Source: Pantanalinema sp.
GTDB taxonomy: Bacteria; Cyanobacteriota; Sericytochromatia; S15B-MN24; UBA4093
Reading direction: 5' to 3'
DNA: 40,689 bases
NCBI GenBank assembly: GCA_036704125.1
Contig: DATNQI010000045.1
Location: forward strand, 1 to 40,689
Shown: positions 14,506-39,700 of the stretch, piece after piece
Layout: each line of letters opens with the position of its first letter
Position numbering within the stretch: the first letter of the stretch is position 1
The notes under the pieces: model-generated
Database searches by the model: none
What the model saw: only the letters and a program-made list of their open reading frames with translations
What the model was told of the DNA's origin: nothing
Position numbers and translations under genes: made by a program

Positions 14506-14625
14506 TTTTTTGCCCACCTGATCGGTGGATTTCGCTCCTTTCGCGTAAACGCCGCATGCGCGGCACTTCCAGTTTAGCATGGCCCGCTGTCAGGGGCGGG
14601 TCTTGCCGATTGACGGGGCCTCGAT

Positions 14626-14700
14626 CGCCGTGTTCGAATGGCGGTGCTCCGGGCCGGAGGGTCTGGGTTATCGGAACAAGTAACCCCAGGCTCGGCTTTT
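14626..14700 (+). other. Cluster of three hairpins upstream of the Ro60 gene
   Basis: Three stem-loops follow one another: CGCC/GGCG around GTGTTCGAAT, a loop that looks like a tRNA T loop (14626-14643); CTCCG-GGC-CGGAG (14647-14659); and CTGGGTTA with TAACCCCAG, one base bulged (14663-14689), then CTCGGCTTTT. It ends 29 bases before the Ro60 start. It could be a structured leader, a terminator-ended small RNA or a Y RNA-like partner. No match to a known Y RNA core was recognised. Confidence 0.35.
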
Positions 14701-14729
14701 GTCCGGAGTATCTCTTAGAGGGTGAGGCC

Positions 14730-16286
14730 ATGCGGACGCCCCAAGACCAGCCGATTCCAGGCTCGGCCCAGGTGCCGAACAGCGCGGGCGGCTTCTCGTG
14801 GGCCGTCGATGACTGGGAGCGCCTCGATCGCTTCCTCATCCTGGGCACCGAGGGCGGCAGCTACTACGTGAGGCCCGCCGCCCTCGCGCGCGAGAACGCC
14901 GCGGCCGTGCTGCGCTGCATCGCACAGGACGGCCCCCGGGCCGTCGAGCGCATCGCTCTGATCAGCGAGGCCGCTCGCGCGCCGCGCAACGACCCGGCCC
15001 TGTTCGCCCTGGCCCTCGCGGCGGCGATGGGCTCGGCCGAGACGCGCTCGCTCGCGCTGGCCGCCCTCCCCCGCGTCGCCAGGATCGGCACCCATCTCTT
15101 CCACTTCATGGCCTACGTCGAGGGCTTTCGCGGCTGGGGCCGGGGCCTGCGGCGCGCGATCGGCGCCTGGTACAACGCCCAGGATCCGGATGACCTGGCG
15201 CTGCAACTGATCAAGTACCGGCGCCGGGACGGCTGGAGTCACCGCGACGCCCTGCGCCTCTCGCACCCCGTGCCCGCCTCGAGCGCTCACCAGGCCCTGT
15301 ATCGCTGGGTCGCACACCAAGAGGACGTCGAGGGTCTGCCCGAGCGTCTCTCGGCCTTCGTGGGGCTGCAACGGGCCGAGACGCCCGAGGCGATCGCCGG
15401 GCTGATCACCGCGCATCGCATGCCGCGCGAGGCCGTCCCGACCCGCTGGCTGGATCGGCCTGAGGTCTGGGAGGCGCTGCTCGCGGCGATGCCGCTCGAG
15501 GCCATGGTGCGGAACCTTGCGACGATGACGCGCGCCGGCCTGCTGCGTCCTTTGTCGACGGCGTCGCGCCTGGTGTGCGAGCGCCTGGGGGACGCCGAGC
15601 GCTTGCGCCAAGCACATCTTCATCCCATCAAGCTGCTCGCCGCCCTTGCGACCTACACCGCGGGCCACGGTGTCCGCTCGAACGCGGGCGAATGGGTACC
15701 CGATCCTTCGATCGTGGATGCGCTCGACGGGGCCTTCTATCGCGCGTTCGAGAACGTCGCGCCGAGCGGCAAGCGTATCGTGCTGGCGCTGGACGTCTCG
15801 GCGTCAATGGACAGCGGGCAGGTCGCGGGGGTGGCGGGCTTGACGCCGCGCATGGCGGCGGCCGCCCTCGCCCTGGTCACGGCGAGTACCGAGCGCGAAG
15901 TCACGGCGATCGCCTTCAGCGACCGGATGGTGCCCCTCGCCCTCTCGGCGCGCGAGCGCCTCGACGACGTCATGCGCGCGACCGCGGCGATCCCTTTCGG
16001 GGGGACCGACTGCGCCCTGCCGATGCTGTGGGCGCTCGAGAACGGGGTCGAGGCGGACGCCTTCGTGATCCTGACCGACAGCGAGACCTGGGCGGGCGAA
16101 ATTCACCCGGCCGAGGCGCTGGCACGTTACCGGGAACGCACGGGCATCCCCGCCAAGCTCGCGGTGGTCGGCATGGTGTCGAACGGCTTCTCGATCGCGG
16201 ACCCCGCCGATCCCGGCATGCTGGACGTGGTCGGCTTCGACACGGCGGTGCCCCAGCTGCTTTCGGACTTCATCGCGGGCTGGTAG
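14730..16286 (+). CDS. rsr: Ro60/Rsr: TROVE and vWA domain RNA-binding protein
   Basis: Bacterial ortholog of the Ro60 autoantigen, 518 residues (vertebrate Ro60 has 538). The N-terminal TROVE domain (about 10-345) is a ring of helical repeats that binds misfolded RNA ends and Y RNAs; segments such as GGSYYVRPAALARENA, GTHLFHFMAYVEGFRGWGR and HPIKLLAALATYTAG are characteristic. The vWA domain (about 348-518) has a MIDAS motif DVSAS from Asp355, then FGGTDCALP and LTDSETWAG. In Deinococcus and Salmonella, Rsr works with Y RNA and PNPase in RNA decay or with RtcB in RNA repair; neither partner is in this window. ATG 14730 follows GAGG. It is divergent from the CNNM gene; hairpins lie between. 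Confidence 0.93.
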   Translation: MRTPQDQPIPGSAQVPNSAGGFSWAVDDWERLDRFLILGTEGGSYYVRPAALARENAAAVLRCIAQDGPRAVERIALISEAARAPRNDPALFALALAAAMGSAETRSLALAALPRVARIGTHLFHFMAYVEGFRGWGRGLRRAIGAWYNAQDPDDLALQLIKYRRRDGWSHRDALRLSHPVPASSAHQALYRWVAHQEDVEGLPERLSAFVGLQRAETPEAIAGLITAHRMPREAVPTRWLDRPEVWEALLAAMPLEAMVRNLATMTRAGLLRPLSTASRLVCERLGDAERLRQAHLHPIKLLAALATYTAGHGVRSNAGEWVPDPSIVDALDGAFYRAFENVAPSGKRIVLALDVSASMDSGQVAGVAGLTPRMAAAALALVTASTEREVTAIAFSDRMVPLALSARERLDDVMRATAAIPFGGTDCALPMLWALENGVEADAFVILTDSETWAGEIHPAEALARYRERTGIPAKLAVVGMVSNGFSIADPADPGMLDVVGFDTAVPQLLSDFIAGW

Positions 16287-19025: not shown

Positions 19026-20015
19026 TTAGAACCCGAGAATCTCCTTGGCGCGGTTGAGGTTGCGGATGAACTCGGGCGAGGCGTCGGGGTTGCGATCCGG
19101 GTGGAAGGCCTTGGTCAGCATCCGGTAGGTGCCGCGCAGCTGGTCGGGGGTCGCGGTGGCGGTGGCGTGCAGGATGGCCAGGGCCCACTCGCGGTCCGGG
19201 TTGGCCTTGCTGACCGTGAAGCCGAACCTGGAGCGCCCCACGTTCGTGCCCTCGCGCCGGCCCTCTTCCCAGCCGTCGCGGCGGCCCCGGTCGTAGGCGT
19301 TCATGACGTCGGCGGCCGCCTCGGCCTTGCCTTCCTTGACGCCTCGCTCGTGGGCCTGGTTGACCTCCACCTGCAGCTCGGCGCGGCCCATCTGGCGGCC
19401 GCGGTCGTAGGCGTTGCGCGCCTCCTCGCCGCCGGCCTTGAAGCCGTCCTGGCGGCCGCGCTCGTAGGCCTCGGCCAGCTCGTTGGAGGTCTCGCGGCCG
19501 TCGCGCAGTCCGCGCTCGTAGGCCTGGTTGAGGTCCTCGCTGAGCTCGTTGCGGCCGGCTTCGCGGCCGCGCTCGTAGGCCTCGCGCAGGCCGCTCTCGA
19601 CGGTCTCCTGGGTGGGCAGCTCGGCGAGGGCCTCCTGGCGGCCGCGCCGGTAGGCCTCGTCGGAGCTGTTGCTCGCCTGGCTCAAGAGGCGCTGGATGTC
19701 GTGCATGACCGTGTCCAGCGAGACGGGGTGGGCCTGGTCGTCGAGCGCCTCGGGGGCCGGGACAGCGGGCGTGATGAAGCCGACGCGCAGCTGCTGGAGC
19801 TGCTCGGCGCGTCGGCGGACCCGCTCGGCCTCGGCCGAGGCGATGGCCGTCTTCCACGCGGCCTCCTTGCTGAGGGCCGCGCGGGGGATGTCGCAGCGCC
19901 GCGCGATTTCGGTCAGGGTGATGGCGGTGGCGCCTTCCTGCAGCAGGTCGGTCAGGGCCGCCTGGATCTGCTCCCAGCGAAGTTCGCGGGTCGCGAGTCG
20001 GACTTGTTCGCTCAT
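19026..20015 (-). CDS. J-domain protein with HTH-like N terminus and AYERGR repeats
   Basis: Unusual 329-residue cytosolic protein. The N terminus (about 19-55) resembles a helix-turn-helix (TLTEIARRCDIPRAALSKEA). The middle (about 120-254) holds seven copies of an (E/Q/N)AY(E/D)RGRxxG motif with a period of about 19 residues and charged helical spacers, predicting a long helix. The C terminus (about 274-329) is a J-domain, REWALAILHATATATPDQLR with HPD at 305-307 and a terminal NRAKEILGF helix, so it should stimulate an Hsp70 ATPase. No Gly/Phe region, zinc fingers or membrane segment is present. ATG 20015 has GGAGG 11 bases upstream. It is the last gene of the OPT-HD-DUF445 run. I know no named family with this layout. 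Confidence 0.85.
   Translation of the reverse strand: MSEQVRLATRELRWEQIQAALTDLLQEGATAITLTEIARRCDIPRAALSKEAAWKTAIASAEAERVRRRAEQLQQLRVGFITPAVPAPEALDDQAHPVSLDTVMHDIQRLLSQASNSSDEAYRRGRQEALAELPTQETVESGLREAYERGREAGRNELSEDLNQAYERGLRDGRETSNELAEAYERGRQDGFKAGGEEARNAYDRGRQMGRAELQVEVNQAHERGVKEGKAEAAADVMNAYDRGRRDGWEEGRREGTNVGRSRFGFTVSKANPDREWALAILHATATATPDQLRGTYRMLTKAFHPDRNPDASPEFIRNLNRAKEILGF
19254..19658 (-). repeat. Seven tandem AYERGR-type coding repeats
   Basis: Within the J-domain protein gene, motif starts are spaced 25, 19, 18, 19, 19 and 19 codons. The Arg codons and the CGCTCGTAGGCCT-type plus-strand phrase recur. The repeats have diverged in the spacers, so they are old rather than a recent expansion. 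Confidence 0.85.
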
Positions 20016-20131
20016 CTGAGAGATCGCCTCCGGGTGAAGTGACGATGGAGATTCCGCTTCCATCCTAGCCTAGCGCGCGGGCCTCGCGCCGTAACGGACG
20101 CCACACAACAGAAAGCGCGAGCGCGTCCCCC

Positions 20132-21856
20132 TCAAGAGTCGTGCGGCGCCGGGATGCGCAGATAACGTGCCGCCGCGACCAGGAGGGCGGCCCCCACCCC
20201 GGCGATCGCGATCCAGCCCGTCCCGGGCCGGACGTGCTCCACCAGGGCCTCGAGCCCGAGCAGGAAGCCCGTCATGACGAGGCTGACCACGATCCCGCCG
20301 TAGAGCCCCTTGGTGAAGATGGAGTTGAGCTCCTTGCGCGCGAGGTTCTTGACCATGTGCTCGATGGCCTGGGCGTCGGCGCCCCGGATCTTGCTCTCGA
20401 CCAGGCCTCGCACGTCGATGAGCCGCGAGAGCCGAGGCGCCTCGCGCTGGGCCAGGGCGAGGAGCTGCCGCTCGATGGTCCCGTGGATACGCGCAAGCCT
20501 TTCTTGGCCGAGCCGGTCGCGCAGGCGCCCGATGGGCAGGGCCAGCACGAAGGAGGCTCCCTGGCCGATCAGGCCCTGGAGCTGCCGCTGCAGGCCCGCC
20601 TCGCGCAAGAGGTCGAAGCCGAAGTCCACCGCCTCGCGGATGGGCCCTTCCTTGCTCGCGGCCTCGAGGTCGCCCTCGGCGAGGGCGCGCAGCCCCGCGG
20701 GCAGGAACTCCTCGAGCGGGGCCTGCCGGAAGCGCGTGAGGAGGTGGTCCACCCACTGCTGGAGGGTGGTGCGGGTCGCGTCGCTCGAGAGCACCCGGGC
20801 GACGAGGCCCTTGAGGTCCCGGCGCAGGTCGTCGGGGACGGTGGCGTAGCGCGCGCCGAGCGGGGTGCTCGCGATCTCGGTGATGGCCTGGTCCAGCTTC
20901 TGGTACAGGCGATCGCGGTTGGCCGGATCGTTCAGGCTCTCGCGGAAGCGCGCCACCTGGCCGGGGAGGATCTCGAGCACCTTGCGGCGGTAGTGGGCCT
21001 TGTTCTCCCGGTAGGTGGTGCGGATGAACCAGCCCACCAGCTCGTTGAGCAGGCCCTGGCGCGGCAGGTCCTCGACGAAGCCCTCGACGCTGTCGAGGAC
21101 GTAGCGATCGAGCCAGGCCTGGGTGCCGGGGCGCTTGAGGGTCTCCTCGAGCGCCTTGAGCCAGTCGGGGATGCGGTGGCGGGCCTCCGAGCGCAGCCCG
21201 GCGAGCGCCTCGTCGGACAGGAGTTTCCCCGGCGCGCCGAGGCCCGAGAGCCAGGCGTCGATGCGCTCGGCGTTCAGCTCGGGCGCCTCGGCGAGGCCGC
21301 CGAGGCGGGTCTCGACCATCCGGCCGATGGCCTCCCACACCCCCGGGGCGAGCAGCTCGTCCATGCGCATGGCCTTGCGCTCGACCATCAGCCGGGTGAG
21401 GACCAGGGCGCAGCGCTCGCGGACCTCGGGGCTGTTGGCGAGCGAGGCCAGGTACTCGCCGCACCACGAGCTGAGCACGCGGATCTCCTCGTCCAGGGCG
21501 CCGGTGTCGCTCAAGAGCTCGCCGAGGAGCGCTCGGACCGAGGGCAGGTCGCGGTCGACGAAGCGATCCACCTCGCTTGCGACGTTCTCGCGGATCTTGG
21601 CGGCCATCTCCGGGCTGGTGATGAACGTGGCGAGCGTCTCTTCGGAGAGCAGCCGGTCGGCGATGGAGTTGGCGACCTGCCGGGCGAGGGCGTCCTGGCG
21701 CGCGGGCAGGACGCCGTGCAGCTTCAGGCCGGCGAAGCGCCTGGCGGTGTAGGGCCGAAAAAGGAGCTGGACCGCGCCGAAGTCCACCAGCCGGCCCGTG
21801 AGGCCGCCGATGATGACGGCAAGCAAGAGTTCATGCAGGAGCAGGGCGTCAATCAT
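20132..21856 (-). CDS. DUF445 family membrane protein
   Basis: Predicted membrane-associated protein of 574 residues. The N terminus LLLAVIIGGLTGRLVDFGAV followed by QLLFRPYTARRF is the DUF445 (YjiN/YheB-like) signature, with an N-terminal membrane segment. The long middle is helical and charged, with several DUF445-type units (RIPDWLKALEETL, VARFRESLNDPANRDRL). Two C-terminal hydrophobic stretches (GIVVSLVMTGFLLGLEALV and IAIAGVGAALLVAAARYL) anchor the other end, so a large soluble domain sits between two anchors. Function is unknown. No good ribosome binding site precedes ATG 21856. It follows the HD protein gene by 26 bases in the same run. Confidence 0.85.
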   Translation of the reverse strand: MIDALLLHELLLAVIIGGLTGRLVDFGAVQLLFRPYTARRFAGLKLHGVLPARQDALARQVANSIADRLLSEETLATFITSPEMAAKIRENVASEVDRFVDRDLPSVRALLGELLSDTGALDEEIRVLSSWCGEYLASLANSPEVRERCALVLTRLMVERKAMRMDELLAPGVWEAIGRMVETRLGGLAEAPELNAERIDAWLSGLGAPGKLLSDEALAGLRSEARHRIPDWLKALEETLKRPGTQAWLDRYVLDSVEGFVEDLPRQGLLNELVGWFIRTTYRENKAHYRRKVLEILPGQVARFRESLNDPANRDRLYQKLDQAITEIASTPLGARYATVPDDLRRDLKGLVARVLSSDATRTTLQQWVDHLLTRFRQAPLEEFLPAGLRALAEGDLEAASKEGPIREAVDFGFDLLREAGLQRQLQGLIGQGASFVLALPIGRLRDRLGQERLARIHGTIERQLLALAQREAPRLSRLIDVRGLVESKIRGADAQAIEHMVKNLARKELNSIFTKGLYGGIVVSLVMTGFLLGLEALVEHVRPGTGWIAIAGVGAALLVAAARYLRIPAPHDS

Positions 21857-21882: not shown

Positions 21883-23805
21883 TCAGCGCGTGAAGGGCAC
21901 CGGCATCTGGCGCCGAAGCTCGCGGCGGCGGCTGGCGTTGCCCACGCCCTCCTCGTCGAGCATGCCGAAGTACTCGCGGTAGGCGTCCAGGTACGGTTCG
22001 AAGAGGTCCTTCATGGCCGCCTCGAGCGAGTCGACGTACGCGCGGCTCTCGGCCGGCTCGGCGAGGGTCCTGAAGAGGCGCTTGCCCCAGCCGGTGCTGC
22101 CGTACTTGGGCCGACGCACGAAGACGTTGCGCACCCGCTCGACGCGCGCCGGCGCGTAGACCAGGCCGCAGCGCTCCAGGTAGCGCAGGTCGTTGAGCAG
22201 CGCCCCCGACGCTCGCGTCCCGGCATAGCTCTCGGAGAAGCGCGGGGCCAGGATCGCGCGCAGGGCCGGGTGACGCAACAGCGTCAGCACCGCCTCGCGG
22301 CCGTCCAGGTAGATGCGCGGGTCGCCGACGGCGCGCGCGATGCTCTCGAGCGCCGCATAGCAGGTGAGGAAGAGCAGCGCCAGGCGCGAAGGGCCGTGGC
22401 CCACCTGCTCGGTCAACAGGTCGAGGGCCACCTCCTCGAGGGCCAAGAGGAGGCCGAACTGGACGCGATCGCCCCCCCACAGCTCGGCGAGGATGCCCTC
22501 GGCCTTGGTCTCGTCCATGCTCGCGTCGAGGCGGCGGTAGGCCTTCACCCACTCGGCGAAGTGCGCCGCGTCCGGCTCGATCTCGGCGTCGGAAGGGACG
22601 TACACCCGCAGGCCGATGCCCTCGAGCGAGGCGTCCACGATGCCCTGAACCGTGGGCAGCTCGGTCAGGCGGCCGTGCCAGGGGGCGTGGCCCGAGCGCG
22701 AGACGGGCAAGGGGTCGGTGGGCGGGCTGATCGAGAGGCGATCGACCAGGTAGCTGCCCCGGGTCTGGGCGTTGAGCCGAGCCTCGAGCTGCTGGGCGAC
22801 GCTGCGGCCGGGCACCTGGAGCGAGCGCAGCGCGAAGCGCGCCAGGGGCGAGAGCACCGAGAAGTCGTAGGTGGTCAGCTCGCGGAAGGGCTCGCGGCCG
22901 CCCACCATGGCCGCCATCTGGCCCCACTCGAAGGGGGCGTGCTGGCGCAGGAACTGCTCGAGATCCGAGTCCTGGCCGACGTTGACCACCCGGTCGAAGA
23001 CCTCTCGGCGCTCGGCGTCGGCGCCGTGCAGGGCCTGCCGGATGCAGCGCGCGAGCAGGAGGTCGCCCAGGCGGCTTCTGGGGTTGTTCTGGATGTTCGA
23101 GATGAGGTTGAAGCGCGCCGAGAGCAGCTGCGAGGCGACGTAGGTGTGCTGGGCGCTCAGCACCAGGCCCTGCTCCGGGTCCGGCACGTAGAGGTCCAAG
23201 AGCGACTGGGTGTCGATGCCGTGGGTGAAGCCGCAGTAGTAGTTGTCCCTCAGGACGTAGTCGATGCGGTCGGCGTCGATCTCGGAGTGGGTGAAGAAGT
23301 TGAGCTCGGCGCGCGGGTGCTCGCCGATGGCCACCAGGGCGATGTCGCGCCGGTCCAGGTCGCGGTACCCCGGGTGGCGCTCGAGGACCTCGCCGATCTC
23401 GGGGTCGGTCTCGACCAACAGGCGCGTGTGCTCCTCGTGGTCCAGGTAGTTGGCCAGAAAGGCGTACTCGGGCTCGGCGGCGTAGCGCCGGGCGGCGTCC
23501 TCGAGCGAGTGCGAGAACGGGCGGTGGCCCAGGTCGTGGCACAGCGCCCCCAGCCGGATCAGGCGCAGGTCCTGCTCGCTGAAGACCGAGCCGAGGTGCT
23601 CGGAAAGGAGCCATGCGGTGTGCATGGCTCCGATCACGTGCTCGTAGCGGGTGTGATGCGCGCCCGGGTAGACCACGTAGGCCATCCCCATCTGCCGCAC
23701 CCCCCTCAGCCTGCTGAAGGGCCTGGTGCGGAGCAGGTCCCGCTCGCACGCGGTGAGCGGGATCAGGCCGTGGATGGGGTCCCGGACGCGATCGGTGAAG
23801 ATCAC
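21883..23805 (-). CDS. HD-domain phosphohydrolase (SAMHD1/dGTPase-like)
   Basis: Soluble HD-superfamily phosphohydrolase of 640 residues related to dGTPases and COG1078. Metal-site residues are visible: His51 in AHHTRYEHVIGAMHTAWLL, His90-Asp91 in LCHDLGHRPFSH, and the downstream Asp cluster in SEIDADRIDYVLRDNYYCG (about 174-192). The HTRYEHS-like and DRIDYVLRD motifs are those of the COG1078 group. Known relatives hydrolyse dNTPs, but the C-terminal 300 residues here are not familiar. The start is GTG 23805, overlapping the OPT stop codon as GTGA, so translation is coupled. Predicted products would be deoxynucleoside and triphosphate (family knowledge, not shown here). Confidence 0.9.
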   Translation of the reverse strand: MIFTDRVRDPIHGLIPLTACERDLLRTRPFSRLRGVRQMGMAYVVYPGAHHTRYEHVIGAMHTAWLLSEHLGSVFSEQDLRLIRLGALCHDLGHRPFSHSLEDAARRYAAEPEYAFLANYLDHEEHTRLLVETDPEIGEVLERHPGYRDLDRRDIALVAIGEHPRAELNFFTHSEIDADRIDYVLRDNYYCGFTHGIDTQSLLDLYVPDPEQGLVLSAQHTYVASQLLSARFNLISNIQNNPRSRLGDLLLARCIRQALHGADAERREVFDRVVNVGQDSDLEQFLRQHAPFEWGQMAAMVGGREPFRELTTYDFSVLSPLARFALRSLQVPGRSVAQQLEARLNAQTRGSYLVDRLSISPPTDPLPVSRSGHAPWHGRLTELPTVQGIVDASLEGIGLRVYVPSDAEIEPDAAHFAEWVKAYRRLDASMDETKAEGILAELWGGDRVQFGLLLALEEVALDLLTEQVGHGPSRLALLFLTCYAALESIARAVGDPRIYLDGREAVLTLLRHPALRAILAPRFSESYAGTRASGALLNDLRYLERCGLVYAPARVERVRNVFVRRPKYGSTGWGKRLFRTLAEPAESRAYVDSLEAAMKDLFEPYLDAYREYFGMLDEEGVGNASRRRELRRQMPVPFTR

Positions 23806-25715
23806 GGCAGCAGCACGCCCAACAGGACGATCGCGACGCCCAGCAGGCTCTCACCGGCGATGAGGCCCGAGGCGATGGGGATCAGGTAGGCTTCCGACTG
23901 CTTGGCGTTCCACTTCTCCCAGATGAGCGCCAAGAGCGCGCCGAGGAACATGGAGATGGCGTTGGTCGCCGGGATGACCATCGAGAGGCCCAGGGCGCTG
24001 GCCGAGGGCACGAAGGCCTTGGCCTTCTTGGGGAGGGCCATCTCGATGAGGGGCAGGGCGATGCCGATGAGAGCGCCCACCAGCATGCTCACCTGGATGG
24101 TCGGGTGCAGGCTCGCGATGCCGTTGCTCAGGAGCTGGGCCACGCTCGCCCAGACCTGGGCGGCCGGGGCCGGGAACTTCTCGGAGCCGAGGACGTCGGC
24201 ATTGGGGACCAGGACGTACCAGACGGGGACGACCACGGCGGTGCCGACGAAGATGCCCGCGAACTGGGCGAGGAACTGCTTGCGGGGGTTGGCGCCGAGC
24301 AGGTAGCCGCTCTTGAGGTCGGTCAGCAGGTCGGCGGCCGAGCCCGCGGCCCCGGCGGTGACCGTGGCGGTCATGAGGTTGGTGACGATGTTGGCCGGGG
24401 CCAGGATGCCGTAGGTGAGCTGGGTGATCTTGCCCATGGCGCCGATGGGGGTCGTGTCGGTCTCGCCCGTGACGCGGCAGGCGACCAGGCTGAGGAAGAA
24501 GGTCATGACGATGGCGATGAGGCTCATCCAGGGCCGCACGTGGAACGCGAAGTGCATGATGGCCATGACGCCGAGGGCCGCGATGGTCGTGCCCACCCAG
24601 AACCAGGAGTTGGGGACCTCGATGGCGGCCAAGGGATCGTCCTCACCGCTCGCGGCCGCGGCCTTCTTGGGGGTCAGGGCGCTCACGATGGTCTTCCACT
24701 GCATGGCGAAGCCCAGCAGGCCCGAACTCACCATCATGGACGAGCCCATCCAGAGGCTCCAGTTGCGCAGCGCCTTGGGCGAGGGGAAGAAGCCGGGCTC
24801 GAGGGCCGTCTTGGGGTCCACGCCGTGGGCGAGGAAGGCGGTGGGGAAGTGCTTGAGGACCTCGGGCAGGGTGATGCCGTAGGTGGCGATGGCCCCCAGC
24901 AGCATGGTCCAGCCGGTTTTCCAGCCCATCAGGGCGCCGGCGGCGACCATGATGGTCGAGGCCTCGAGGGTGAAGGTCCACTTTGCGATGGGCTGGCCCG
25001 CGATCTTGAGGAACGGGATGTGGAAGTCGGCGGGCAGCGCGGGCAGGCCCATCTTGAGCTTGCCAGCGAGCCAGGGCATGCCGTCGCGGGCCCATGCGAC
25101 GATGGCGCCGAGCCCCATCATCTTGAAGAGGACGCTCGCCTGCTTGACGGCGTCGCCGCCCTTGGCGTGGAGGCTCTTGAGGGTGGTGGCCGCGGCCACG
25201 CCCGAGGGGAAGCGCAGCTGCTCGACGTTGATCATCTGGCGCTTCATGGGGATGGCCAGCATGACGCCCAGCATGGCCAGGAAGAAGGTCCAGCCCATGA
25301 GGGTCCAGAACTCCATGTTCGTCTTGGTGACGATCAGGTAGGCCGCGATCGCCGAGACCATGGTGCCGCCGGTCGAGTAGCCAGCGGCCGAGGCCGTCGA
25401 CTGCATGGCGTTGTTCTCGAGCAGGGACATGTCCGTCTTGGCCAGCCCGATCTTGCGAAGGGTCGTCCAGATCGCATACGACAGGATGCACGCCGTGATG
25501 GCCACGCCCAGGCCCCAGCCGGTCTTGAGGCCGACGTAGAGGTTCGAGAGGGACATGACGGCGCCCAGCACGCTGCCCATGAGGACGGAGCGGACCGTGA
25601 GCTGGGGCATGCTGTCGCCCTGGTAGACGTTCTTGTACCAGTCGAGCTCGCGCTCGCGCGGCGTCAGCTCCGTCGAAGCGGCCGGAGCCTCTTCGTTGCC
25701 GAGGGTCGTGGACAT
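23802..25715 (-). CDS. OPT family oligopeptide transporter
   Basis: Inner-membrane transporter of 637 residues with about 14-16 predicted helices, of the OPT superfamily that moves small peptides or metal chelates. Family segments are clear: SVLMGSVLGAVMSLSNLYVGLKTGWGLG near the start, ENNAMQSTASAAGYSTGGTM, and MKRQMINVEQLRFPSGVAAA, followed by DLLTDLKSGYLLGANPRKQF. This matches the bacterial (EspB-like) type. ATG 25715 has AAGGAA eight bases upstream. It heads a leftward run with the HD, DUF445 and J-domain genes. A minus-strand -10-like TACAAT lies at plus 25781-25786. The substrate is unknown. Confidence 0.93.
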   Translation of the reverse strand: MSTTLGNEEAPAASTELTPRERELDWYKNVYQGDSMPQLTVRSVLMGSVLGAVMSLSNLYVGLKTGWGLGVAITACILSYAIWTTLRKIGLAKTDMSLLENNAMQSTASAAGYSTGGTMVSAIAAYLIVTKTNMEFWTLMGWTFFLAMLGVMLAIPMKRQMINVEQLRFPSGVAAATTLKSLHAKGGDAVKQASVLFKMMGLGAIVAWARDGMPWLAGKLKMGLPALPADFHIPFLKIAGQPIAKWTFTLEASTIMVAAGALMGWKTGWTMLLGAIATYGITLPEVLKHFPTAFLAHGVDPKTALEPGFFPSPKALRNWSLWMGSSMMVSSGLLGFAMQWKTIVSALTPKKAAAASGEDDPLAAIEVPNSWFWVGTTIAALGVMAIMHFAFHVRPWMSLIAIVMTFFLSLVACRVTGETDTTPIGAMGKITQLTYGILAPANIVTNLMTATVTAGAAGSAADLLTDLKSGYLLGANPRKQFLAQFAGIFVGTAVVVPVWYVLVPNADVLGSEKFPAPAAQVWASVAQLLSNGIASLHPTIQVSMLVGALIGIALPLIEMALPKKAKAFVPSASALGLSMVIPATNAISMFLGALLALIWEKWNAKQSEAYLIPIASGLIAGESLLGVAIVLLGVLLP

Positions 25716-25939
25716 GCAGTCGCTTCCTTTTTCAGACGGGATGGCCCGCTTACGGGCACGGGTGGGGAGGTGATCCCTGGATTGTAACATCCTCATAACC
25801 ATGAGGTCTACGGGATCGCCGGCTCCCGGCCCTCAGAGGCAGTCAGACAGGGGAATCGCCGACACCTTGCCGGGTCTCGCCGCTTGTGTTAATCTCTTAA
25901 CCAAGGCTTAATTTTGAGAGAAGAAGGAGTGCCGCGACG
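25716..25939. promoter_or_regulatory. Divergent promoter region, OPT and rhodanese genes
   Basis: The region holds a minus-strand TACAAT (-10-like, 25781-25786) for the OPT run and, for the plus strand, the AT-rich GTTAATCTCTTAAC (partial inverted repeat) about 50 bases before the rhodanese start. A small inverted repeat, CCTCAT-AACC-ATGAGG, is at 25791-25806. No -35 box is convincing on either side. Confidence 0.35.
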
Positions 25940-33020: not shown

Positions 33021-33064
33021 ACATTCGCAGGCGCCGTCATGCCGACGGCGCCTGCGAATGTTTT
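33021..33064 (+). terminator. Strong terminator with 18-base perfect stem
   Basis: Exact complementary arms at 33021-33038 and 33044-33061 enclose ATGCC, followed by TTTT (33061-33064). It separates the small lipoproteins from the giant NHL genes. Confidence 0.85.
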
Positions 33065-33091
33065 GCGAGTGGTGGGCTGTAAAATCGACGA

Positions 33092-33131
33092 GCGACGGTT
33101 TGTGCGTCGCGCCGGCACGATGCCCGGCGCG
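33092..33131 (+). other. Alternative overlapping hairpins in the NHL operon leader
   Basis: GCGACG/CGTCGC (33092-33097 with 33105-33110) and CGCGCCGG/CCGGCGCG (33108-33115 with 33124-33131) share three bases, so only one can form fully. They precede the first NHL gene by about 70 bases. A -10-like TAAAAT lies at 33080-33085. This could be a regulatory leader; nothing known was recognised. Confidence 0.35.
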
Positions 33132-33198
33132 GATGAGGCCAGTCACGTGGTAGCGGGCGCGTCATCACAGCGGCAAGGAACGCGCCGGAGGAGCACGC

Positions 33199-36100
33199 AT
33201 GAGGCGAATGGTTGAGAACGGTCGTGCGATCGCCCGGCAGGACCGGTGGCGCCGCCTGGTGCCGGGGCTGCTCGTCGTGGCCTTGCTGATGCTCTCGCTG
33301 AGCGCCTGCCGTCTGCCCGGCGGCACCCCCGTGCTCGGCGCGGGGGCCGGTGCGCCGGCTGCCACCGGCGATGTCGCCCGCGAGGCGCCCCCGCTGTCGG
33401 GGCGGGCCTACTTTGCCAGGCGTGCCGCCCAGGCGTCCATGGACGACGTGGCCATCGGGGCGACCGTGTCCCTGATCAACACGGGGTCCAACACGACCGT
33501 CGCCACGGGCCTGACCGACGCCCAGGGCCGCTTCTCGATCGCCCTGCCGCGCGGCTTCGTCTTCGACAACACCGCCACCTACTACATCGAGGCCTACAAG
33601 GGCCTGAATGGCAACCAGCCGGGTCACGACGTCGCGCGGGTGCGCACCGTCGCCAAGCTGGTGAACGGCGCCTGGTTGACCCTCACCAACGGCGCCGCCG
33701 ACGGCGACGTCGTGGTGGGACCTGCCAGTACGGCCGTCGCCCTGGGGGCGGCCCTGCGCAAGGGGACGGCCACCCCGGTCGACTTTGACGCGCTCATCGG
33801 GAAGCTCTCGGGCAATGTCTTCTCGCCGGTCCCCAACCTCTCGGGGGCGGACTTCACCGCCCTTTTCACCATGGTCCAGGAGGGCCTCATCGAGAACCGC
33901 GACCCGGTCCAGACCATCGGGTACGACTCGATCGAGGGCGTTTTCGAGCGGGTCGACGTGGCACCCAGCCAGTTCGCGGTCGAAAGCATCAGCCCGACTT
34001 CGGGCGTCGTGGGCAGCACCGTGACGATCACCGGGCGCGGCTTCTCGAAAACGGCCAGCGACCACATCGTGCGCTTCAACGGGGTGCCCGCGGTCCCGGA
34101 GGCGTCCACCGAGACGACCCTCACGGTCCGGGTGCCGCCGGGGGGCACCTCGGGCACCACCACCGCCCAGCTCCGGGGGGTCATCACCCTGGGGCCGATC
34201 TTCACGGTGCAGGTGGTGGTCGATTCCTTCGCGCCCGCCTCGGCGGCGCCAGGGGCGAGCATCACCCTGACCGGGTCGGGCTTCGACCTGGCGGATCTGT
34301 CCAAGAACGCGGTGCGGTTCGCGGGCGGGGCAATGGGGACCGTGACGGCGGCCACGGCGACGACGCTGACGCTGACGGTGCCCTCGGGCGCGGTCAGCGG
34401 GCCCCTGAGCGCTTCGGTCTCGGGCAGCCAGACCGCGATCGCCACGCCCCTCACGGTGCCGGTGAGCGTGACGGGGCTCAACCCCTTCGTGGTCCGGCCG
34501 AGCGGGACCTTCACGGTCACGGGGACGGGCTTCGGCTCGAGCGTGGCGAGCGTGTCCGCGTCGGTGGCCGCTCAGGCGTGCCAGGTGCTCGCCGCGAGCC
34601 CCGCGAGCCTGACCCTGCGGGCGCCGGGCTCGGAAATGACGGGGGCCCTCTCGGTGACGGTGGAGGGCCAGACGGGGACCAGCGCCACGAACCTGCGGGT
34701 GTTCGTCGGCCTCTCGCCCGACGCGACCATCGCGAAGCTCGCGGGCTCGAGGCTCGCCCCCCCGGGGACGCTCGCGACCAACTGGGGCCTGTCCCCCAAC
34801 GGCGGAGTGACGTTCGACAGCAGCGGCAACTACTACTTCTGTGCGAGCAACGCCGTCTACAAGGTCGACACGGCGAACCGGCTCTCGATGGTGGCAGGCC
34901 AGTACGACGGCGGCTTCTCGGGGGACGGGGGGCCTGCGCTCAACGCCAAGCTGAACTCTCCCAACGACGTCGCGGTGGACGGCGAAGGCAACGTCTACAT
35001 CGCCGACGCGAACAACTACCGGGTCCGGAAGGTGGACGCCACGGGCGTCATCACCACCATCGCGGGCACCGGCACCAGCGGGTACTCGGGAGACGGCGGC
35101 TCGGCGCTCACCGCCCGGTTCAATTACTGTCCCAGCATCGAGGTCGACGGCGCCGGCAACCTGTACATCGCGGATGTCTTCAACTACCGTATCCGGCGGG
35201 TGGCTGCCAGCGGTATCGTCTCGACGGTGGTGGGCACCGGGGTGCAAGGCTGGTCCGGGGACGGAGGGGCCGCCACCGAGGCCAACATCGACTACCCTAT
35301 CGGCCTGGCCTTCGACGCCGCCGGGAACCTGTACTTCGCCGACTACACACGCCACGTCGTGCGGAGGGTGACGCCCGCGGGCGTCATCTCGACCGTCGCT
35401 GGCGCTGGCGGCGCCGGTTTCTGGGGAGACGGCGGCCTCGCGACCAGCGCCTACTTGAGATACCCGCGCGACGTCGCGGTGGATGCCGGGGGCAACCTCT
35501 ACATCGCCGATGCCGACAACCACCGCATCCGCAAGGTGACGCCCGACGGCACGATCACCACGATCGTGGGGACCGGCGGCAACGTTTACTCCGGGGACGG
35601 TGGGGCCGCCGTGAACGCGGGGATCCCGTACCCGAAGGGCGTGGCGCTCGATGTGAGCGGGAACCTCTACATCGCCCAGGACTATCGCGTCCGCAAGGTC
35701 GATCTTTCCGGCAACATCGCCACGGTGGTCGGGAACGGCAGCAGCACCTGCTCGGGGGACGGCGGTCCTGCGCTCAACGCCCAGTTGTATTCCCCCGCCG
35801 ACCTGAAGCTGGATGCGGCCGGTAACCTGTATGTGGCCGATACCAACAACAACCGCATTCGAAAGATCGATCCCGCCGGGATCATCACGACGGTCGCGGG
35901 GAATGGGGCCTCGGGCTTCGCGGGGGACTCGGGCCCCGCCGTCGATGCCAAGCTCAATTCCCCTTACGCCGTGGCGGTCGAGGCGGACGGCAGCCTCTAC
36001 ATCGCGGATACCTACAACAACCGGGTGCGCAAGGTGGCTCCCGACGGCACCATCTCGACGATCGCCGGCGACGGCACCAGCGGCTACGAGGGCGACGGCG

Positions 36101-36717
36101 CTGCCGCGGCGAGCGCCAAGATCGGCAACGTCTACGGCCTCGCCCTGGACGCGGCCGGCAACCTCTACCTGTCGGATTCCTCCTACAACGTCGTGCGCAG
36201 GGTGACGCCCGGCGGGGTCATCTCGACGGTGGTCGGCACGGGCACGGCCGCCTACGGCGGGGACGGGGGGCAAGCCGCCAACGCCCAGCTCAGGAATCCG
36301 AACGGCCTCGCCTTCGACGCGGCGGGCAACCTCTACATCGCGGACAACGGCAACCATCGGATCCGCAAGGTGACGCCCGGCGGCATCATCTCGACCGTCG
36401 CGGGCACCGGCATCAACGGTTTCACCGGGGACGGGGGCCCCGCGACCAGCGCGCGCATCTATTCGCCGACGGCCCTGTGCCTCGACTCGGCCGGCAATCT
36501 CTACTTTGCCGACGCAACCAACTACCGCATCCGGAAGGTGACGCCCGAGGGCATCATCAGCCCGGTCGCGGGCACAGGCGCCAGCGGGTATGCGGGCGAT
36601 GGCGCCGCCGCTCTGGGGGCTCAGCTCGGCTATCCGCGCGGCGTGGCGGTGAACAGCGCGGGCACTCGCCTCTACCTCGGCGACAACACCTATCACAGCC
36701 TCCGCGTGATCGAGTAA
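33199..36717 (+). CDS. Giant NHL-repeat/IPT-TIG lipoprotein, copy 1
   Basis: Predicted surface lipoprotein of 1172 residues. The signal segment ends in LSAC (Cys37) after a basic N terminus. Next comes a carboxypeptidase regulatory-like beta domain (about 68-150, ATVSLINTGSNTTVATGLTD). Three IPT/TIG domains start near 260, 340 and 423 (VESISPTSGVVGSTVTITGR, VVDSFAPASAAPGASITLTG, VTGLNPFVVRPSGTFTVTGT). From about 535 to the end are twelve roughly 56-residue repeats with GNLYIADxxNxRIRKV, then TTIAGTGxxGYSGDGG; six blades make a typical NHL propeller, so two propellers are likely. GGAGGAG precedes ATG 33199. It is followed after 12 bases by its paralog. Binding of polysaccharide, peptide or protein partners is likely; no catalytic site is seen. 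Confidence 0.9.
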   Translation: MRRMVENGRAIARQDRWRRLVPGLLVVALLMLSLSACRLPGGTPVLGAGAGAPAATGDVAREAPPLSGRAYFARRAAQASMDDVAIGATVSLINTGSNTTVATGLTDAQGRFSIALPRGFVFDNTATYYIEAYKGLNGNQPGHDVARVRTVAKLVNGAWLTLTNGAADGDVVVGPASTAVALGAALRKGTATPVDFDALIGKLSGNVFSPVPNLSGADFTALFTMVQEGLIENRDPVQTIGYDSIEGVFERVDVAPSQFAVESISPTSGVVGSTVTITGRGFSKTASDHIVRFNGVPAVPEASTETTLTVRVPPGGTSGTTTAQLRGVITLGPIFTVQVVVDSFAPASAAPGASITLTGSGFDLADLSKNAVRFAGGAMGTVTAATATTLTLTVPSGAVSGPLSASVSGSQTAIATPLTVPVSVTGLNPFVVRPSGTFTVTGTGFGSSVASVSASVAAQACQVLAASPASLTLRAPGSEMTGALSVTVEGQTGTSATNLRVFVGLSPDATIAKLAGSRLAPPGTLATNWGLSPNGGVTFDSSGNYYFCASNAVYKVDTANRLSMVAGQYDGGFSGDGGPALNAKLNSPNDVAVDGEGNVYIADANNYRVRKVDATGVITTIAGTGTSGYSGDGGSALTARFNYCPSIEVDGAGNLYIADVFNYRIRRVAASGIVSTVVGTGVQGWSGDGGAATEANIDYPIGLAFDAAGNLYFADYTRHVVRRVTPAGVISTVAGAGGAGFWGDGGLATSAYLRYPRDVAVDAGGNLYIADADNHRIRKVTPDGTITTIVGTGGNVYSGDGGAAVNAGIPYPKGVALDVSGNLYIAQDYRVRKVDLSGNIATVVGNGSSTCSGDGGPALNAQLYSPADLKLDAAGNLYVADTNNNRIRKIDPAGIITTVAGNGASGFAGDSGPAVDAKLNSPYAVAVEADGSLYIADTYNNRVRKVAPDGTISTIAGDGTSGYEGDGAAAASAKIGNVYGLALDAAGNLYLSDSSYNVVRRVTPGGVISTVVGTGTAAYGGDGGQAANAQLRNPNGLAFDAAGNLYIADNGNHRIRKVTPGGIISTVAGTGINGFTGDGGPATSARIYSPTALCLDSAGNLYFADATNYRIRKVTPEGIISPVAGTGASGYAGDGAAALGAQLGYPRGVAVNSAGTRLYLGDNTYHSLRVIE
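34798..36714 (+). repeat. Twelve tandem NHL coding repeats, copy 1
   Basis: Repeats of about 168 bases encode the GNxYxADxxNxRxRKV core and the SGDGGPA turn. Repeat 1 (GNYYFCASNAVYKVD) and repeat 12 (TRLYLGDNTYHSLRVIE) are the most diverged, as expected for end blades; repeat 6 is short around its AQDYRVRKVD core. Confidence 0.9.
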
Positions 36718-36729
36718 GGGGATGGACCC

Positions 36730-39700
36730 ATGCGACGACTGATTGCGATGCTCCTGTCGGGCCTGCTCGTGGCGGGCTGCCGGCTTCCGGCTGCGGGTCC
36801 CTTCGCGTCCACCTCGCCGGTGGGGGGGCATGCCGGGGTCGCGGCCCCCGACGAGGCGCCCGCCGTCCTGGAAGGGCGGGTCTGGTTCGCCGCGCGCCGA
36901 GCGCAGGCGACGATCGAGGACGTGGCGGTCGCCGCCACCGTCTCGCTCATCAACACGGCGACCAGCCTGACCATCTCGACCGGCCTCACCGATGAGCAGG
37001 GGCGCTTCCGCATCACCATGCCCAAGGAGTTCCGGGCCGACGCCACGGCCACCTACTACCTGGAGGCCTGCAAGGGGCTCAACAACAATCAACCGGGCTC
37101 TGCCATGGCGCGAGTGCGAACCGTCGTGAAGTACGCCAACGGCGGCTGGGTGAGTCTCTCCAGCGCGGCGCCCAACGCCCCGATCGTCGTGAGCCCCGCG
37201 ACCACGGCGATCGCCCTGGGGGCCGCCCTTCGCAACGGCACCGACGACGATGTCGAGATCGGCGACCTGATCGGCAAGCTCTCGGAGAGCGGCTTCACTC
37301 CGGTGCCCAACCTTTCGGCGGCCGACTTCAACGCCCTGGTCGGCATCGTGAGCCAGGTGCTGGCGGACGAGAAGGACCCGGTGCGCTTCACTGGCCTGGA
37401 CACCACGAGCGGCACCTGGAAGCCGCTCGAGCGCTATGCGCCGCTGCTCGAGGTGACGGGGGTGAGCCCGACCACGGGCGTCGTGGGCAGCACGGCCACG
37501 TTCACGGGCACGTCGTTCAGCATCACGCCCTCGAACAACGTGGTGCGCTTCAACGGCACCCCCGCCGCCGCCGACCAATCGACGGGCACCACCCTGTCGG
37601 TGCGGGTGCCGCAAGGCGCCTCGTCCGGCGAGACCACCGTCCAGGTCGGGAACATCATCACCATGGGGCCGATCTTCACGGTGCCGGTGCTCGTCGATTC
37701 GTTCGCGCCCGCCTCGGCGGCCCCCGGCTCGAGCATCACCCTGACGGGGTCGGGCTTCGACATGGCGGTGCTCTCGAACAACGCCGTGCGGTTCGCGGGC
37801 AACGCCATGGGGACGGTGACGGCGGCGACGGACACGACGCTGACGGTGACGGTGCCCTCGGGGGCGGTGAGCGGGCCCCTCGGCGTCTCGGTGTCCGGCA
37901 CCTCGACCGCGCCCGCGAGCCCGCTCGTGGTGCCGGTGAGCGTGACGGGGTTCACCCCGCCCGTGGTGAAGCCGAGCGGGACCTTCACGGTCACGGGGAA
38001 GGGCTTCGGTTCGGTGGCCGCGAGCGTCTCGGCGTCGGTGGCCGGGCAGGCGTGCCAGGTGCTCGCCGCGAGCCCCGTGAGCCTGACGCTGCGCGCCCCC
38101 GGCTCGGAAATGGTGGGGGCCCTCTCGGTGACGGTCGAGGGTCAGACGGGGACGAGCGCGACGAACCTGCGGGTGTTCGTCGGCCTCGCGGCCGATGCCA
38201 CCATCCAGACCGTCGCGGGCGGCGCCAAGCTTCCGCCCGCCGGCATCGAGGGGACCGCGTGGGGCCTCGAGTCGGTCAAGGGCATGGTCCACGATCCCCT
38301 GGGCAACGCCTATTTCTGTAGCGGGAACGCCGTCTTCAAGCTCAGCTCGACCAACCAGCTCTCGGTCGTGGCGGGGACCAATGTCTACGGCTATTCCGGG
38401 GACGGCGGCCTCGCGACCGCCGCCCAGCTCAACGATCCGTGGGGCCTCGCGCTCGACTCGGCGGGGAACCTCTACATCGCGGATACGTCGAACCATCGCA
38501 TCCGCAAGGTGGATGCCGCGGGCATCATCACCACGGTCGCGGGCTGCGGCACCAGCGGGTTCTCGGGCGACGGGGACGCCGCGAGCGCCGCCAAGCTAGA
38601 TGCTCCCTCGGACGTTGCGGTGGATGCCGCCGGAAACCTGTACATCGCCGACACCTATAACTACTGCGTTCGCAAGGTCGATGCCGGCGGGCTCATCTCG
38701 ACCGTCGCGGGGCACGGCGATTCCTACGGCTTCCCGAACGACGGGGTCCCGGCCGTCGATGGCTACCTCGGCAACAACGTCCGCGGGGTGGAGGTGGACG
38801 CGGCGGGCAACCTCTACATCGCTGATGCCCGCTACGACCGGATCATGAAGGTGGATGCCGGCGGCATGATGACCGCCTACGCGGGCACCGGTACGACCGG
38901 CTACACGGGAGACGGAGGCGCCGCGACCAGCGCGACCCTCAACACTCCGTACGGCCTGAATATGGACGCAGCGGGCAACCTGTACATCGCCGAGTATGGC
39001 AACCACTGCGTCCGCAAGGTGACGCCGGGAGGCACCATCTCCACGGTCGCGGGGACAGGCGCGTACGGTTTCTCGGGGGATGGGGCGCAGGCCAGCGAGT
39101 CCAAGCTCAATTCCCCCAACGCCGTCTCGGTGGATCCCACCGGCAAGCTCTTCATCGCGGATTACAGCAACTACCGACTCCGCCAGGTGGATGCGAGCGG
39201 GGTGATCTCGACCATCGCGGGGAATGGCCTCTACAGCTACGGTGGGGACGGCTACCAGGCGACCAGCGCGAAGATGGGCGGGCCCAGCGATGTGGCCTTC
39301 GACGCGGCGGGCAACATGTACGTCACCGAGCTCTCCAACTACTGCGTGCGGAAGGTGACGCCGGGGGGCCTCATCTCTCGGGTCGTCGGGACGGGGGTCG
39401 CGGGGTACGCGGGTGACGGCGGCCCGGCGAACATGGCCCAGCTCTCGGGCGCCTCCAGCCTCGCCTTCGACGCGGCGGGCAACCTCTACATCTCGGACTC
39501 CAACAACCACCGGATCCGGAAGGTGGACGCGAGCGGGACCATCTCTACCGTCGTGGGCACCGGCACCTTCGGCTACGGCGGGGACGGCGGCCCTGCCGTC
39601 GATGCCCAGGTCGCATATCCGCGAGGGCTCACCTTCGACAAGGCGGGCAACCTCTACTTCGCGGACACCAACAACCACCGGATCCGGAAGGTCGACACCT

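Follow-up and report, generated by a model that had tools for sequence, protein, structure and literature searches.

A putative class C J-domain protein with an HTH-like head and a glycine-repeat rod in Sericytochromatia

What would a J-domain do at the end of a protein that begins like a transcription regulator? The question is raised by a gene on the minus strand (19026-20015) of the window, the whole stretch of 40,689 nucleotides analysed here, which is contig C45 of a 3.5 Mb host genome (G000; 102 contigs, 96% complete). Its Sericytochromatia hosts are non-photosynthetic relatives of cyanobacteria. The first-pass annotation had described an HTH-like N terminus, periodic repeats and a C-terminal HPD J-domain, and we find these parts in that order: HTH-like head, linker, glycine-repeat rod and J-domain, with the DnaJ model near or above its cut-off and the HTH models below theirs. 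The layout had been matched to no named class, and this holds, as no family model reaches its cut-off on it except DnaJ itself.

The open frame encodes 329 residues plus a stop, with no internal stop, and its GC content by codon position 1/2/3 is 0.73/0.49/0.95. It is a genuine gene, because a second genome of the host's family, Candidatus Sericytochromatia bacterium S15B-MN24 CBMW_12 (G001, DAZV01000008.1; L022 1057-1938, minus, and L027 5983-6864, plus), carries an ortholog with the identical part order. The ortholog has 293 residues from its ATG and is 45% identical over the alignment. An alternative start lies upstream at 20063. We prefer the ATG at 20015, since GGAGG (20027-20031, minus), a likely ribosome binding site, is located 11 bases 5' of it and the ortholog starts at the equivalent place. 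A consensus scan upstream found no promoter, and no candidate operator in the form of a long inverted repeat is shared between the upstream regions of the two orthologs. Upstream of the gene and on the same strand lie genes for a DUF445 protein (20132-21856), for a protein with an HD domain (21883-23805) and for an OPT transporter (23802-25802). Two plus-strand genes converge on it from downstream; one encodes an NHL-repeat protein and the other a protein whose cupredoxin match is below threshold. The gene neighbours are unlike between the two genomes, and the context therefore names no client. Elsewhere in the window, a Ro60/TROVE protein with a vWA domain (Pfam) is encoded at 14556-16286 (plus); an Rfam scan of the window saw no Y RNA, its sole match being one tRNA. 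A frame of 1819 residues (33037-38496, minus), which overlaps long frames on the opposite strand, has no Pfam match at E<=1e-5.

The J-domain, residues 268-329 (19029-19214, minus), is assigned from Pfam DnaJ, an AF2 model and Foldseek. It is short, with three helices and no helix IV. Pfam DnaJ scores 27.5 bits on residues 281-327 in the protein search, just below the cut-off of 27.8, and 29.6 bits in a six-frame search, above it. Modeled alone, the piece reaches a pLDDT of 75.6 and folds into three helices, with the HPD tripeptide (residues 305-307, CACCCGGAT; 19095-19103, minus) in the II-III loop, between helices 290-303 and 314-327. The top three Foldseek matches come from chains or complexes of J-domain or Hsp40 proteins (TM 0.60-0.66, E 0.18-0.96), a weak but consistent agreement of the model with a J fold. 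Class A and B DnaJ proteins have an N-terminal J-domain and DnaJ C-terminal domains, with a zinc finger in class A. Both classes were ruled out, as the J-domain here is C-terminal and no further DnaJ domain was matched: the protein gave no match for a Gly/Phe region, a zinc finger or a DnaJ C-terminal domain. By its domain matches, it falls into class C (type III). PMC4063869 lists eight residues as critical for DnaK binding, seven of which are kept in the window J-domain (297, 298 and 305-309); the remaining one, Phe47, aligns to Ile317. With HPD retained, DnaK contact is plausible here. The host genome has nine J-domain matches, a DnaK gene adjoining DnaJ on contig C98 and a partial Hsp70 match on C4. 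On contig C102 (L061 1377-5542), an HscA-like Hsp70, an HscB-like J-protein and an IscA-like gene, named by eye, lie side by side.

The head, residues 1-80 (19776-20015, minus), was delimited from sub-cut-off Pfam matches, the AF2 model, structure matches and the ortholog. A domain search of this end did return HTH models, but all of them (HTH_20, HTH_IclR and TetR_N, covering residues 18-51) score under their Pfam cut-offs. With residues 1-120 searched alone, HTH_20 gives 22.7 bits on residues 20-49 against a cut-off of 27, and TetR_N 14.7 bits against 24. KfrA_N has no Pfam match at E<=5 in the same residues, in a search whose HMMER filters drop weak matches. The ortholog's HTH touches DUF6262 at 14 bits, with a cut-off of 29. 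The full-length AF2 model, built from two sequences, has a mean pLDDT of 52.4 and is poor outside the head; within the head it shows four helices (3-27, 34-41, 45-50 and 52-79), at a pLDDT of about 75-84 across residues 11-70. Among the 50 VIA matches listed for the model (Z 3.9-5.9), about 24 are TetR-type regulators, some by their titles and others presumably so. The head aligns to PvrA (Z 5.5, rmsd 2.1 over 50 residues) and to SlmA-DNA (Z 5.2, rmsd 1.9 over 50 residues). These TetR-type matches, at Z of about 4-5.6, are below the tool's level of trust, and the tool warns that middling values of 4-6 may reflect common arrangements. The five top matches are long helices aligned to the poorly modeled rod, not to the head. 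In the HTH stretch, the window protein and the ortholog both keep RR-x2-IPR-x2-LS, and their heads carry net charges of +2 and +4, respectively. According to the model, a TetR-like HTH fold is likely for the head, which might in turn bind DNA.

The rod comprises seven A[YH]xRG units in residues 121-259 (19239-19655, minus). They start at residues 121, 146, 165, 183, 202, 221 and 240, or bases 19655, 19580, 19523, 19469, 19412, 19355 and 19298 of the minus strand. The seven-unit periodicity claimed in the first-pass annotation is real: the repeat segment shifted by 19 residues matches itself at 31 positions, which none of 5000 shuffles reached (largest 25), and a shuffled segment never held more than one A[YH]xRG. 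The 19-residue period, however, is exact in just four of six steps (25, 19, 18, 19, 19, 19). The (A)Y(E/D)RGR pattern does lie on predicted helices, in a low-confidence model, but the motif is not new. Six of the seven units have the form AxxxGxxxG, the exception being the first, AYRRGRQEA, and the repeats read as the glycine repeat known from FliH and YscL, here about one per 19 residues. In FliH, PMC2674601 describes AxxxG(xxxG)mxxxA repeats; Tyr or Phe occupies >30% of the x1 positions of AxxxG, and Trost and Moore propose that the helices pair. The likeness is one of motif, not of family; NCBIfam FliH models score 25 bits against 293 and 21.7 against 192 on residues 219-262. The host's two FliH-type genes lie elsewhere (L066 and L067), each adjoining a FliI-like ATPase frame, by eye. 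Other models that touch the repeats are also below their cut-offs, namely Pfam DUF6363 (22.5 bits, cut-off 26.4), Yae1_N (11.1 against 27.5) and DUF6900. PHROGs of unknown function match the repeats and the J-domain, with phrog_4785 the best (E 2.6e-6, residues 160-214), though PHROGs models come without cut-offs. The glycines form a stripe at 3.77 residues per turn, as strong in none of 2000 shuffles, which largely restates the 4- and 19-residue spacings. Acidic residues are also periodic above shuffles (31 and 1 of 2000). Ala alone and R+K are not above shuffles in the rod, and neither is the hydrophobic phase peak without Tyr in two segments (1026 and 667 of 2000). A right-handed coil type was considered for the rod and dropped, as most residue classes are not above shuffles; the stripe alone is claimed.

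To place the J-domain, we built a tree of 18 J-domains, whose resolution is limited by the roughly 50 columns of each. Six of them form a clade (97/94) apart from the other 12: those of the window protein, its ortholog, G000 C43, G000 C61, G001 C14 and G007 C2. In the C43 protein (235 aa), a single AFEAGRMEGHDAG stretch and a coiled-coil-like sequence precede the J-domain; the C14 protein (143 aa) carries YFEGKEEGYHEGYKAGFRKG. The C61 member (L062 5862-6008, minus) is a J-domain cut off by the contig end. The G007 C2 protein (L080 1576-3828, minus, last 183 residues, counted from its presumed ATG) has an unlike head, a coiled-coil-like stalk and a C-terminal J-domain of the same type. Its head, which looks like a ribbon-helix-helix by eye, matches phage transcription-regulator families in PHROG (E 7e-4 and 0.025) and has no Pfam match. 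The protein found only itself in 386 genomes of the phylum and no convincing relative in the PDB, the best match (E 0.14) being a designed protein. In four plasmid and 12 phage records, the match covers its J-domain only. A frame was obtained for five of the six viral loci that match it, all with an N-terminal J-domain, and none for L130. The clade thus appears to consist of short C-terminal J-domains on helical stalks, two kinds of which bear regulator-like heads, and such a head may have been joined to the clade's J-domain twice. Three HPDxGG C-terminal J-domains of the class form a separate tree group.

The arrangement of known parts is real, rare and lineage-restricted within what was searched. 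A profile of the two orthologs matched only 2 of the 386 genomes at E<=1e-7, those of the host and CBMW_12, and the HTH head alone matched the same number among 18 genomes of the class. No relatives were found in plasmids and phages by tblastn, and 232 pattern matches in viral contigs yielded no confirmed one. A scan of genome contigs gave 58 pattern matches and a single relative, the CBMW_12 ortholog, with short peptide patterns that miss distant relatives. In a census of J-proteins of the class, 40 stretches, mostly low-scoring J matches, were hand-picked from 150 rows, and a purpose-built model recovered a J-like match in 35 of them. None has repeats of the window type, and none has an HTH head by eye (Pfam was run on one, L096). 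A literature search, with most subscription journals outside its reach, found, among the titles and abstract openings listed, no description of this layout for J-domains with HTH, RHH or TetR parts, and the sections of PMC10313047 and PMC7824862 at hand do not describe the window layout.

How might these parts work together? The order of the parts, a J-domain recognised by sequence and model, and the presence of DnaK and DnaJ in the host are observed; DNA binding, dimerisation, DnaK contact and the client are inferred. Our preferred reading, which we hold tentatively and would not call probable, is a class C J-protein that sits on DNA via a dimeric head and rod and brings DnaK to a client bound to DNA, or else tunes its own head. 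The N-terminal HTH head would bind DNA as a dimer. By analogy with FliH, the glycine-striped helices might pair, forming a rod to hold the dimer in place and set the distance. The two C-terminal J-domains would then catch DnaK-ATP and load DnaK onto a client near the DNA site, which might be a partner on the DNA or the head of the protein itself; the latter would make the protein a chaperone-tuned regulator. The first-pass annotation had the rod delivering a specific client to Hsp70. We find no evidence for this, and it leaves the TetR-like head unused. In addition, the number of units varies, from seven in the window protein to three AYxxGxxxG units in the ortholog, and a spacer or dimer rod therefore fits better than a defined client site. 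A broader statement is unlikely to hold in full, namely that one-chain DNA-binding regulators carry their own J-domain on a glycine-striped rod and bring Hsp70 to chosen DNA sites, the clade having joined at least two unlike DNA-binding heads.

A first alternative, close to the view of the first-pass annotation, is that the head and rod bind a protein client in place of DNA, one or the other acting as client adaptor, and that the HTH fold serves protein contact. The HTH models below cut-off and the acidic rod (net charge -8) speak for it, as do the clade paralogs G000 C43 and G001 C14, which keep the glycine repeats or coiled coil and have no recognisable HTH head. However, a drop from seven to three units would be unexpected if the rod were a fixed client site, and the head is as well conserved as the rod: 33 of 80 residues are identical to the ortholog in the head and 37 of 94 aligned residues in the rod, where 47 of 141 window residues lie opposite gaps. 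We consider this alternative rather unlikely, though it fares best among the rivals.

The second alternative is a regulator or structural DNA-binding rod of the KfrA type, in which the J-like remnant serves as a module for dimer or partner contact and does not act with DnaK. KfrA proteins combine an HTH head with an alpha-helical tail behind it (PMC7821693). The ortholog bears on this directly. Its J-domain is the best conserved part (41 of 55 residues identical, and 32 of the final 39), yet it has HTD (CATACGGAT) in place of HPD and reaches just 18.5 bits, under the Pfam DnaJ cut-off. This substitution, as read from the ortholog's sequence, is the strongest contrary fact to the mechanism that we propose. 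Found in the sole ortholog, it means that Hsp70 cooperation may not be conserved. It may be an assembly error or a lineage-specific change of use, or it may mean that the partner is something other than Hsp70. A single metagenome assembly provides the ortholog, whose Thr codon is one base from that of Pro (CAT ACG GAT, against CAC CCG GAT in the window), so that an assembly error is possible. Moreover, the other five of the six clade members, the window copy among them, retain HPD. A J-like remnant is improbable to our minds, more so than a protein client. That the repeats are a low-complexity expansion without a role of their own, the head and J-domain alone mattering, is very unlikely: the unit number varies and the first 18 bases of the units are 67-100% identical, but over 57 bases the identity is just 46-74%, so the units are not fresh copies, the 19-residue spacing is seen again between the last two units of the ortholog (188 to 207), and glycine repeats are present in the paralogs too.

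For the preferred reading, a J-protein that brings DnaK to DNA, the kind of repeat (FliH) and the J-domain class (C) were known already, and what is new is their arrangement. If it is true, one chain that combines a DNA-binding head with a J-domain would allow a direct test of whether a J-domain on DNA suffices to remodel whatever is bound at that site. The best-described glycine-repeat rods are those of FliH, and here such rods would serve as spacers in chaperone helpers. To our knowledge, the known bacterial links of Hsp70 to gene control, HspR, HrcA, sigma32 and CbpA/CbpM, all use separate proteins. Class C J-domain proteins likewise have a J-domain with HPD and lack the Gly/Phe region, zinc finger and DnaJ C-terminal domain, whereas in the window protein the J-domain follows an HTH-like head and a glycine-repeat rod, forms the extreme C terminus and has no helix IV. 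The FliH/YscL glycine repeat (PMC2674601) shares AxxxGxxxG with charged x positions, a Tyr in second place and a predicted helix; its units stand back to back in FliH, but once per 18-19 residues here. KfrA-type proteins (PMC7821693) have an HTH-like head and a long alpha-helical region as well. In contrast, the window protein has no Pfam KfrA_N match, a glycine repeat in place of the coiled coil and a terminal J-domain. In HspR or HrcA with DnaK, and in CbpA with CbpM, an Hsp70 or J-domain is linked to a DNA-binding or regulator-like protein. In those systems (PMC4063869) the parts are separate proteins, whereas in the window protein the two would be joined in one chain.
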